Both the position numbers and the translations under genes were made by a program. A stretch of DNA of 38,562 nucleotides from Parcubacteria group bacterium. GTDB lineage: Bacteria > Patescibacteriota > Minisyncoccia > Phycocordibacterales > Phycocordibacteraceae. The first letter of the stretch is position 1. Each line of letters opens with the position of its first letter. The DNA lies in assembly GCA_028286605.1 (NCBI GenBank), contig JAQBRE010000006.1:1-38562 (forward strand), written 5' to 3'. Below the pieces are notes generated by a model, which saw nothing but the letters and a program-made list of their open reading frames with translations, was not told the origin of the DNA and did no database searches. Shown here one piece after another: positions 31,195-34,263 of this stretch.

Positions 31195-31234
31195 GACGCA
31201 TATCCCTTGTTTGCTCGGTATATCCCCTAAATGG

Positions 31235-31286
31235 TTCACCGCAGCATAGAAAGCTCATGTATATAAGCGCTCTAGGCTACGGTGTA
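31235..31286 (-). promoter_or_regulatory. Conserved leader hairpin of PEP-CTERM gene 1
   Basis: Arms 31235-31250 and 31271-31286 pair at 13 of 16 positions plus one G-U on the minus strand, around a 20-base loop. Sequence and position match the hairpin before PEP-CTERM gene 2, with base-pair covariation at three positions. Confidence 0.6.
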
Positions 31287-31361
31287 CAACAAAACGGACT
31301 GAACTAATGTGAAAGAACTCAGCGTGTACCTTACCACTTTTCTTTACATATGACAAATAGA

Positions 31362-31387
31362 AGCGCCCGGCTGAGAAGCCGGGCGCT
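31362..31387 (-). terminator. Terminator after PEP-CTERM gene 2
   Basis: 11-bp stem AGCGCCCGGCT / AGCCGGGCGCT with a 4-base loop; on the minus strand it is followed by TCTATTTG. Confidence 0.85.
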
Positions 31388-31406
31388 GTAGTGTTTTCGC
31401 GTTGAT

Positions 31407-32228
31407 CTAGGCGATCGCGGCGAGATGCGACCTGCGCCGGAGCGCAGCGCCGACGCCACCGAAGCCCAGAATCATCAAGGCCCAGGAAGCCGGTTCGGGC
31501 ACGCCGCCGGTGGTGACGTTGTCCCACATGACGTTCCGAGTCACGCCGCCGACGGCATTCTGGTTCTGCAGGATGACAGCTCCGAAGTTGGTGCTGAGAT
31601 CGCCGGCGTTACCGGTCGCATAATCAGGACTGAGGAGGCTCACGCTGTGCGACGCGTCGGACACCGTGTAGAGCAGGTTGCTCCCGTCGATGGTCACGCC
31701 CAGCGTCAGCCAGTCGTTGGTGGTGAAGCCCGTCGGCAACCCGATGTCCACGAACGCGGAGGTGACGTTGTTCCAGCCATAGGCGCTGATGCCGCTGCCG
31801 TTGTTCTCGAGCTCGATGATGCCATAGTCGGTGGGAACGCTGTTCACACCGTTGTTGCCGACGGCCCACAGACCCGCGATGCGCCCATTGCCCGGGTTCC
31901 ACGTCTTGTCGACAAAGATGTCGGCGGAGATGTGGGTGGTGCCGGGATCAGTGACCGTCGAACGCCCCTGCGTATTGTAGAAGGAGTTGGCCGCAGTCTG
32001 CCCGTCGCCCGCGGTGATAATCTCCTGGAGGACATTGCCGTGGGTGCCGCCAATATTAGTGACAGTGAAGCCGGCCGGAGCGAAACGGTCCGGAGACCAC
32101 ACGCCCGGACCCGGAGTCGCACTCAGCAGCACCGGCGTGTCGAAGGTGTTCGTGCCCGCCGAAGCGGCGCCGGCGCCGAGAGCCAACAAGGAGGCCGCGC
32201 AAACGGCAAGAAGAAGAGAGTGTCGCAA
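31407..32228 (-). CDS. PEP-CTERM-type secreted protein 2
   Basis: The start is a TTG at 32228 with GGAG 7 bases upstream, a well-supported unusual start codon. The 273-residue protein has a signal peptide (RHSLLLAVCAASLLALGAGA with ASA cleavage), a concanavalin/LamG-like beta body (TTHISADIFVDKTWNPGNGR, DYGIIELENNGSGISAYGWN) and the C-terminal tag VPEPASWALMILGFGGVG with AALRRR. The body is unrelated to PEP-CTERM protein 1, but leader and tag are alike. Alphaproteobacterial-style GC-rich composition. The plus-strand ORF 31425-32243 is its shadow. Confidence 0.85.
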   Translation of the reverse strand: MRHSLLLAVCAASLLALGAGAASAGTNTFDTPVLLSATPGPGVWSPDRFAPAGFTVTNIGGTHGNVLQEIITAGDGQTAANSFYNTQGRSTVTDPGTTHISADIFVDKTWNPGNGRIAGLWAVGNNGVNSVPTDYGIIELENNGSGISAYGWNNVTSAFVDIGLPTGFTTNDWLTLGVTIDGSNLLYTVSDASHSVSLLSPDYATGNAGDLSTNFGAVILQNQNAVGGVTRNVMWDNVTTGGVPEPASWALMILGFGGVGAALRRRSHLAAIA

Positions 32229-32273
32229 TGGAATTCTCCGTAACTGAGGTTGTGCCTACAGATCCCCAAAAGG

Positions 32274-32326
32274 TTCAACGTGGCCTAAAAAGTTCATCTG
32301 AGATGAGCGCTTTAGGCCACGTTGAA
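32274..32326 (-). promoter_or_regulatory. Conserved leader hairpin of PEP-CTERM gene 2
   Basis: Perfect 16-base inverted repeat TTCAACGTGGCCTAAA / TTTAGGCCACGTTGAA around a 21-base loop that itself contains TCATC-TGA-GATGA. It lies about 45 bases before the TTG start and may be an operator dyad or an RNA leader element. Confidence 0.65.
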
Positions 32327-32398
32327 AAATTGGAACCAATTGATTTGAAAGAACGCTGGTAAAACCTTAACATTTTTATCTAAATTAGGCAATAGAAA

Positions 32399-32420
32399 CG
32401 CCCGGCTGGTGTGCCGGGCG
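32399..32420 (-). terminator. Terminator after the C39-like gene
   Basis: Stem CGCCCGGC / GCCGGGCG with a 6-base loop; the minus strand continues TTTCTATT. Nearly identical to the terminator at 31362. Confidence 0.83.
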
Positions 32421-32441
32421 CTGTAGGGTAGTTCGGGAGCG

Positions 32442-33122
32442 TCAGTCGCCCCCATATGCGATCAATTCTTTGGGTTTGTGCGACAGATAGAAATCCTGAA
32501 GCAGGGTAACTTTTCCTCCTGCAGGATCCACTGCAACAAACGTGCCGTCTTCGTCAGACACGGCACGTATCCAGTGCGACGTGACGCCGCGACGTGAACC
32601 GTGCGAATGATCGAGCCGGAATACGACTGATGCACCTTGTGAAAGCCAGTCCTGGATGACGCTGAGTCCGTTACCTTGCGACAACGGTTGGCGCACCAGG
32701 ATTTTCAAGCTCGATGAAATGATCTCGAGGCTCTGAGTACGAATCCGACCCGAAGGGTCGATCAGTCCCAGTGCCTTGAAGCGTTGGGCAAGTTCGCGAG
32801 GATCGCGAGCTTGGCCCTTCTGCATCATGTCCATGGCAATATCCATGAACAGACATCCTTGGCCGCCGATCGTTGTCTTCTTGCCAAGCCGCACTTTATT
32901 CCAGCGCGGGTCGGTTTGTGAGAGAACGACCCGCGCGGCCGCAGGCGAAGCCTGCGGCTTCTCCATCATGCGGTCGTAAAAAGCTTTCGATTCAGCGGAG
33001 TCCAGAGAGGACTGCATCATCGTTCCGTACTGGTAGTTTGGGTCGGACGCGGCGGATTCCTGTGCGGCGCACAACCCTGCAGACAGCAGGAGTGCGAACA
33101 TCGCACAAAATATCAAACGCAT
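32442..33122 (-). CDS. Secreted C39-like cysteine peptidase
   Basis: The 226-residue protein has a signal peptide (MRLIFCAMFALLLSAGLCAA). A papain-like C39-type domain follows: LSQTDPRWNKVRLGKKTTIG leads into the catalytic-Cys segment GGQGCLFMDIAMDMM. The His segment is GVTSHWIRAVSDEDGTFVAV, then DPAGGKV, the usual 'H-w-v...v.DP..g' order. Such domains cleave at Gly-Gly motifs or act as cell-wall peptidases; the substrate is unknown here. It has TTGACA and AAGGAG upstream, and its terminator matches that of PEP-CTERM gene 2, placed next downstream. Confidence 0.78.
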   Translation of the reverse strand: MRLIFCAMFALLLSAGLCAAQESAASDPNYQYGTMMQSSLDSAESKAFYDRMMEKPQASPAAARVVLSQTDPRWNKVRLGKKTTIGGQGCLFMDIAMDMMQKGQARDPRELAQRFKALGLIDPSGRIRTQSLEIISSSLKILVRQPLSQGNGLSVIQDWLSQGASVVFRLDHSHGSRRGVTSHWIRAVSDEDGTFVAVDPAGGKVTLLQDFYLSHKPKELIAYGGD

Positions 33123-33279: not shown

Positions 33280-34263
33280 CTATTGAGCAGTAACCTGAAC
33301 GGAAGCGCTCGTACTGGTCGTATCACCGGCATCATCCGTGATCGTAAAGGTTGGCTGATACGAACCTGCCGCGTCATAAGCGTGCGTGAATGTTGCAGAG
33401 GTCTGAGTCGTCTGCGGCATCACAACAGCCAGAGCACGAAGCATCATGTTCTCGTCGCCCCATACTACTGAATAGTGCAGGTTGCCCGAGACATTGCTGC
33501 TTGCGTGCACGGTCCATGTGCCATCGGTACCCGCAACCAGCGTTACTGGCGCGTCGATTCCGTTAACTGAAAGGTGCGCCTTGATTGGGGCAGTCACCGT
33601 GAAGCTCACGACATTGCTCTTTCCCTTGTTACTATCGTTACCCTTCACCCACACCTTATACGTGCCTGCGGGGGTAGTGGAGGGAACTGTGAAGCTGATA
33701 TCGTTTGCATCCTGAATTGCCGCGCTGACGGTCGTAGTGCCGAAGTGTACTACGCTGCTAGAAGCGAATCCAGAACCGACTAGTGTCACCGCCGTACCGG
33801 CTAGGCCCGTACCCGGCGTTATCGAGGTGATGCTTGCAACCACATTGTTCGTACCGACCTGAACCTTTGCTGCATTCTTACTTACCGAGTGTCCTGAGTC
33901 ATCCGTTACGGTGAAGGTCGGCTGATACGTGCCCTTCGTGCTGTACGCGTGAGTGAAGGTCGCTGATGTTGTCGCCACCGGCGAAATCAGAGCATTACGA
34001 CGTAGCGCCGAATTCTCATCACCCCATATAACGGAGTAATGAAGATTCTGATCACCGATTTCCTTAACGTTCACCGTCCAGCTTCCGTTCTGATCGAGGG
34101 CAAGGCTGGTCGGACCAACAACGCTTGAAATCTGTGGCGCGCTACCTACCGTAACGGGTTGGTTAGGTGCCTGATAAAGATTCGTGGGAGGCATGTGCGC
34201 CATGCCCGAGAAGGTCATGAACGGCGCAAGGAACATGGCTCCTAATTTTGTTGCGAAATGCAT
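33280..34263 (-). CDS. Secreted PKD-IPT/TIG-PKD repeat protein
   Basis: The 327-residue protein has an N-terminal hydrophobic export signal (FATKLGAMFLAPFMTFSGMA). Order of domains: PKD-like repeat 1 (about 42-138, LHYSVIWGDENSALRRNAL and TFTHAYSTKGTYQPTFTVTD), an IPT/TIG domain (about 140-225, ITSITPGTGLAGTAVTLVGS), and PKD-like repeat 2 (LHYSVVWGDENMMLRALAVV and TFTHAYDAAGSYQPTFTITD). The two PKD copies are close relatives, so an internal duplication around the TIG domain is clear. Surface adhesion or scaffold roles are typical. No membrane or sorting anchor is seen. Confidence 0.88.
   Translation of the reverse strand: MHFATKLGAMFLAPFMTFSGMAHMPPTNLYQAPNQPVTVGSAPQISSVVGPTSLALDQNGSWTVNVKEIGDQNLHYSVIWGDENSALRRNALISPVATTSATFTHAYSTKGTYQPTFTVTDDSGHSVSKNAAKVQVGTNNVVASITSITPGTGLAGTAVTLVGSGFASSSVVHFGTTTVSAAIQDANDISFTVPSTTPAGTYKVWVKGNDSNKGKSNVVSFTVTAPIKAHLSVNGIDAPVTLVAGTDGTWTVHASSNVSGNLHYSVVWGDENMMLRALAVVMPQTTQTSATFTHAYDAAGSYQPTFTITDDAGDTTSTSASVQVTAQ

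Follow-up and report, generated by a model that had tools for sequence, protein, structure and literature searches.

The window, by which is meant the whole stretch of 38,562 nucleotides analysed here (contig C2), belongs to an 805 kb, 96% complete genome of the Patescibacteria, or candidate phyla radiation (CPR), and carries two neighbouring genes for proteins with a PEP-CTERM tag, each preceded by a leader with a promoter-like site, a boxA-like GTTCTTT and a long hairpin (Table 1). Both genes have the NF035944 tag above cut-off. An earlier note on this DNA had claimed that the two leaders are homologous and their hairpins covary while the proteins differ, and alignment confirmed the homology of the two intergenic stretches from the terminator (CTACAGCGCCCGGC..) through GGGGAT, while the proteins of genes 1 and 2 have only the 34-amino acid (aa) PEP-CTERM C-terminal tail in common. 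The inverted repeats are found at the same place, the outer arm being paired at 16 of 16 positions before gene 2 and at 13 of 16, plus one G-U, before gene 1, and the three compensatory pairs that had been described (A-U to C-G, G-C to A-U and A-U to G-C) are real. The other stem differences between the two copies are a single change of U-A to U.G and two which break pairing, namely C-G to CxU and the outermost U-A to AxA. Unnoticed in the earlier note was an upper helix above the 16 pairs, joined to them by a conserved G.U / CxU / G-C step. The window leaders fold more stably than shuffled sequences (z of -5.3 and -3.3), and from the two copies alone the probability of three paired complementary changes by chance is about 0.002; two-copy covariation, taken alone, is suggestive only.

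Table 1. Positions in the window of the two PEP-CTERM genes and the parts of their leaders.
Feature	Position	Strand	Basis and remarks
Gene 2, PEPxxWA-CTERM protein, 273 aa	31407..32228	-	NF035944 50 bits; TTG start inferred; no template or variable repeat found
Gene 1, PEPxxWA-CTERM protein, about 235 aa	30487..31194	-	NF035944 47.3 bits; TTG start inferred; no template or variable repeat found
Gene 2 leader hairpin: lower stem of 16-18 bp, G.U wobble, CxU mismatch, upper stem, loop	32273..32328	-	Covariance models R1 68.2 bits, R2 61.3 bits
Gene 1 leader hairpin, homologous to that of gene 2, three compensatory changes	31233..31288	-	R1 72.9 bits, R2 62.6 bits
Gene 2 promoter-like site TTGCCT-17-TAAGGT	32364..32392	-	Sequence; layout shared with 89/115 homologous sites
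Gene 1 promoter-like site TTGTCA-17-TAAGGT	31328..31356	-	Sequence; layout as in homologous sites
Gene 2 boxA-like GTTCTTTCA, close to the inferred mRNA 5' end	32346..32354	-	Sequence; position weight matrix (PWM) AGTTCTTTGAAA from 115 sites
Gene 1 boxA-like GTTCTTTCA	31310..31318	-	Sequence; PWM from 115 sites
Gene 2 TGAACC.TTT.GGGGAT element, 3' of hairpin	32262..32277	-	Alignment A1
Gene 1 TGAACC.TTT.GGGGAT element, 3' of hairpin	31222..31238	-	Alignment A1
Gene 2 terminator-like stem, duplicated along with the gene 1 leader	31362..31385	-	Repeat D1/I4
Terminator-like stem of gene 32442-33122, duplicated along with the gene 2 leader	32399..32422	-	Repeat D1/I4

Hairpins were found at the same place before PEP-CTERM genes of relatives, and four leaders could be aligned free of gaps except in the loop and the outermost columns, with 10 of the 24 pairs changed on both sides. 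The covariance model of upstream regions of PEP-CTERM genes that had been proposed in the earlier note was built on those four leaders (R1) and searched in 93 congeners; the repeat and its pairing are kept in homologues, and new members were found, including a third copy in the own genome at C3:43228. Matches of R1 in G036, G472, G051 and G048 were hairpins within genes or terminators and were dropped. In an alignment of 16 members made with MAFFT on sequence (A3), 91% of the cells are paired, 18 of the 24 pairs are changed on both sides, and the covariation score is 0.567, compared with 0.230 with shuffled partners and at most 0.118 with slid partners. The count of 18 leans towards structure because most members of A3 were found by a structure model, the first four having been found otherwise. 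These counts bear out the selection on structure that had been read from the two copies. The window leader and nine homologous loci had no covariance-model match at gathering score in Rfam 15, and no description of such a leader was met with in the literature searched, which took in few subscription papers. Judged from its sequence, the leader is near certain to be a structured cis-acting leader RNA of a family unrecorded in Rfam 15. The divergent PEP-CTERM gene of G039 (G039a; L018 10621-10674, C1, minus strand) has a long perfect leader hairpin of its own, with the stem AGGAAGTGAGCGTTCT, which was matched by none of the models.

Of the 397 genomes in the order, 124 had matches to model R2, nine at most in any one of them, some sites having been matched on both strands. 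These genomes represent 79 of the 179 genera; a structured-RNA family across 79 genera is missing from Rfam 15. A phylum-wide draw at a stricter threshold gave 13 carriers among 380 genomes, eight of them outside the order, and the same promoter and motif context was found in seven of these eight. When 85,462 species genomes were scanned with a pattern, all 42 matches fell in Patescibacteria or unnamed bacteria, and a scan of viral contigs gave no match. The family is nearly confined to Patescibacteria. Relatives of gene 1 (in G039) and of gene 2 (in G450 and G451) in other species of the genus are preceded by the leader, kinship being judged by eye, and the association of the leader with PEP-CTERM genes is therefore older than this genome.

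The anatomy of the leader was described from 116 non-redundant sites, with counts of promoters and motifs over 115 of them. On the sense strand, 89 of 115 sites have an upstream promoter-like score of at least 9, as against 15 in shuffles and 2 of 115 on the antisense side, and the -10 box, of sigma-70 type, usually ends 28-32 nucleotides (nt) 5' of the hairpin. The interval between promoter and hairpin holds a motif of the consensus AGTTCTTTGAAA; in 72% of the sites its score exceeds the 99th percentile of shuffles. In the layout, the promoter is followed after about 10 nt by the boxA-like (A)GTTCTTTGAAA and this, after a further 5-15 nt, by the hairpin with its 18 + 6 pairs; the Shine-Dalgarno sequence and the start codon come about 40-140 nt past the hairpin, the start codon at a median of 67 nt. 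The hairpin has the ends GTTYGCC...GGCRAAC. Its lower stem of 18 pairs is followed by a 1x1 mismatch, in most sites CxU, next to which a G.U wobble stands in 86 of 116 sites, and in the upper helix there is a U.G wobble in 90 of 116; 29 of the 116 hairpins also lie within a stop-free frame of at least 150 codons. Between hairpin and start codon no terminator was found in 103 of 104 leaders, and with a terminator in only one of them the leader is therefore neither an attenuator nor a riboswitch terminator. The motif CCNNCTRGYA occurs 3' of the hairpin in 19 of the 116 sites, compared with 0.6 in shuffles. After it, between the main hairpin and the Shine-Dalgarno sequence, a second small hairpin (GCAACRNGTTC..GAACAYGTTGC or similar) is seen in L062, L067, L068, L042, L229 and L237.

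Whether the repeat is an RNA element or a regulator-binding dyad in DNA had been left undecided in the earlier note, and the RNA is now favoured over the dyad. Departures from Watson-Crick pairing in the lower stem are G.U in 65 cases and A.C in 19 (binomial p 5e-7), a ratio to be taken as an upper bound given that the search model is more tolerant of G.U. This excess, the conserved wobbles and the placement of the promoter on one strand only all argue for RNA. An inverted repeat serving as DNA operator for a dimeric transcription regulator would agree with a long palindrome directly downstream of a promoter, but it is quite improbable in view of the strand asymmetry seen in the conserved G.U and U.G and in the G.U excess, and of a stem sequence which, unlike that of an operator, is free to vary while pairing is kept. 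Long imperfect hairpins of variable sequence with fixed mismatches are also what a recombination site or mobile element would show, be it an integron attC, a miniature inverted-repeat transposable element (MITE) or a repetitive extragenic palindrome (REP). The hairpin ends are however not RYYYAAC/GTTRRRY, no genome has more than nine matches, viral contigs have none, and most of the sites lie behind a promoter-like site, which leaves such an origin extremely improbable. The integron attC, considered for its hairpin shape, was ruled out by the ends and by the context, the hairpins standing behind promoters and not in arrays.

CPR bacteria are rich in diversity-generating retroelements (DGRs), and one is present in the own genome at about 40.8-43.3 kb of C3, where a hairpin, a gene of 216 aa, a template repeat (TR) and a reverse transcriptase (RT) gene follow each other in that order. 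Between the TR and the 3' end of the target gene 19 of 19 differences are at template adenines, and the RT (PF00078, E 1.1e-24) is encoded at C3:40846-41457 on the same strand. With RTs identified by Pfam PF00078, and TRs and variable repeats (VRs) by an adenine-tolerant diagonal search, 38 of the 116 sites were found to precede a gene with a TR, and 630 of 638 TR/VR mismatches fell on a template adenine; judged by their TR/VR pairs and RTs, these DGRs are of the usual type. Proteins similar to those DGR targets follow a further 48 sites, for which the conserved leader RNA can serve as a marker of DGR targets without an adjacent TR. PEP-CTERM genes follow six sites, both window genes included, and other genes, one of them for an SPFH protein, follow the remaining 24. 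Among the 128 hairpins listed, at least 33 have an RT downstream on the same strand, always at 1683-1941 nt, and no other arrangement occurs among the matches listed. Co-occurrence by genome is modest (both in 73, hairpin only in 51, RT only in 107, neither in 166; p 3e-4), as is to be expected if targets occur without an RT and other types of RT exist.

By its gene context, then, this is the 5' leader of DGR target genes, the variable-protein genes of DGR cassettes being where it is chiefly found. The earlier proposal of a common 5' module for surface proteins stands as far as the module is concerned, while a specificity for surface proteins or for genes with the PEPxxWAMM tag is not supported, with six sites before PEP-CTERM genes and 86 of 116 before DGR targets or their relatives. 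A leader specific to PEP-CTERM genes is likewise ruled out, most matches preceding other genes. Genes 1 and 2 of the window are not DGR targets, no VR matching a nearby TR having been found (diagonal scores at background), and they use the DGR leader, which links the PEP-CTERM surface genes of one genome with the DGR programme. The same genome holds five PEP-CTERM genes, the window pair and those at G000:C3:407015, 484771 and 486144, and the leader is absent from the latter three.

The strong tie to DGR target genes could mean that the leader is a working part of mutagenic homing, either in target recognition or in cDNA priming. In the DGR of BPP-1 the sequence upstream of the VR is dispensable for homing (PMC3240598), and leaders are found in genomes without a detected RT, for example G039 and G432, so that a role in homing is unlikely; with leaders also before PEP-CTERM genes that lack VR and TR, it is considered very improbable. 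The hairpin or cruciform downstream of the VR in BPP-1 resembles the leader in being an inverted repeat at DGR target genes whose structure is kept while the stem sequence varies. The leader differs in lying 5' and not 3' of the VR, in its 24 bp compared with 7-10 bp, in having no GRNA tetraloop and in occurring also before genes other than DGR targets. The cassettes with the leader are probably those of DGR clade 2 of Patescibacteria (Roux et al. 2021, PMC8144416), in which CPR DGRs have targets without recognised domains. No leader hairpin is mentioned in the main text of that study.

As to what the leader does, a nut-like antitermination leader is ranked first because its parts stand in the order of a nut site, because a terminator-like stem follows the TR, and because no promoter is enriched before the RT. 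The lambda nut complex, in which boxA is likewise followed by a hairpin, resists both Rho-dependent and intrinsic terminators (PMC10250234). In 37 of the 38 DGRs the TR is followed, at a distance of 20-43 nt, by a terminator-like stem that has a T-run, as against 1.8% of shuffles; this stem is conserved in the form TTTCTCTCCC..GGGAGAGTTTTGTTTT, for example in L085, L117, L118 and L119. Between this stem and the RT there was no enrichment of promoters, a score of at least 9 being reached in 7 of 30 cases and in 38% of shuffles. On this reading, general Nus factors, perhaps together with a hairpin-binding protein, would be loaded onto RNA polymerase by boxA and hairpin as these emerge in the nascent transcript, and the polymerase so modified would get through the terminators that follow the target gene and the TR, and reach the RT gene. 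Where the leader stands in front of a lone gene, as in the PEP-CTERM pair, it would make the expression of surface proteins subject to the same control.

Like lambda-type nut sites and rRNA boxA antitermination leaders, the leader has a boxA-like GTTCTTTGA close behind the promoter and a hairpin after that, in an operon whose terminator-like stems would have to be passed. Unlike the short boxB of lambda, however, the leader hairpin has 18 + 6 bp with internal mismatches, and it has no known N protein. The best matches to the boxA-like PWM in rRNA leaders are AGTCCTTTGACAAT / AGGCCTTTGACAAC in two genomes (G300 and G187), and equivalence with a host boxA was seen in just these two of nine rRNA leaders. 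Leaders of the LoaP, RfaH and EAR types also encode an RNA (or DNA) element before long or special operons, but the present leader had no Rfam family match and its carriers have no NusG paralogue.

Several results weigh against antitermination. With seven of nine rRNA leaders lacking a convincing boxA match, the identity of the motif with boxA is only suggestive. A NusG paralogue was sought with PF02357 in 76 genomes and there was never more than one match, 75 of the 76 having one NusG; as this holds with or without the hairpin, a partner of LoaP or RfaH type is not indicated. Single target genes and PEP-CTERM genes have no downstream reader that would need antitermination, the stem 3' of the TR may be a functional piece of the DGR RNA instead of a terminator, and there are the 107 genomes with an RT without a hairpin, at the threshold used, and the 51 with a hairpin without an RT. 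That the leader acts by nut-like antitermination is therefore proposed tentatively, as something that may well prove otherwise. The explanation as a whole, in which an identity that is near certain is taken together with a mechanism that is only proposed, is given slightly better than an even chance of being right.

Two close rivals to antitermination have to be set beside it. In one, the leader would act in mRNA stability or processing, a long 5' stem blocking decay from the 5' end or forming an RNase III site with the cleavage point set by the G.U/CxU step. Stems of 18-24 bp near the inferred 5' end, a leader shared by unrelated genes, whether these stand alone or in operons, and a start region that is not sequestered by a terminator are all in keeping with this, but a stem of pure stability function needs neither a conserved internal motif nor a boxA-like motif at a set distance, and this alternative is regarded as unlikely, though it deserves serious attention. 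In the other, the leader would be the binding site of a dedicated RNA-binding regulator by which DGR targets and PEP-CTERM genes are switched jointly, at translation or at elongation. The conserved core of wobble and mismatch, the second conserved motif CCNNCTRGYA after the hairpin and the sharing of the leader by DGR targets and surface genes, as in a regulon, would fit a regulator of this kind; no candidate protein was identified, however, and the Shine-Dalgarno sequence lies outside the hairpin, well downstream of it, and the proposal is held to be rather doubtful.

No account of the expression of CPR DGR cassettes was found in the literature searched, and the leader makes the control of hypermutation, through the expression of its machinery, open to testing. 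In the most far-reaching form of the antitermination reading, the leader might be a dedicated processive-antitermination RNA, a cis switch for the synthesis of template RNA and RT (programmed hypermutation), which was captured by PEP-CTERM genes; this is a speculative possibility and on present evidence an unlikely one. If it were true, conventional surface proteins would share an expression programme with the hypervariable ones.

Leader-bearing genes or DGRs are found a few kb from nusG in several genomes (G000:C3:43226 and 44835; G432:C4:36654 and 35835; G205:C10), and a shared insertion locus or chance is a possible cause of this proximity. PEP-CTERM proteins are sporadic in CPR genomes, examples being G039, G041, G128, G181, G222, G442, G450 and G451, and no exosortase (PF09721) was found in the own genome or in any of nine PEP-CTERM-bearing CPR genomes. 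BLAST of the region against phage gave no match. The PEP-CTERM pair of the window is adjoined by a gene for a PKD-domain protein (33280-34263, minus strand) which partly resembles a CPR pilus RbmA-like protein (PamR). Just downstream of a DGR in G084, L117 1840-2357 gave a sub-threshold match to RNase P class A (50.7 bits with a gathering score of 100, E 8e-13), which may be a divergent CPR RNase P RNA.
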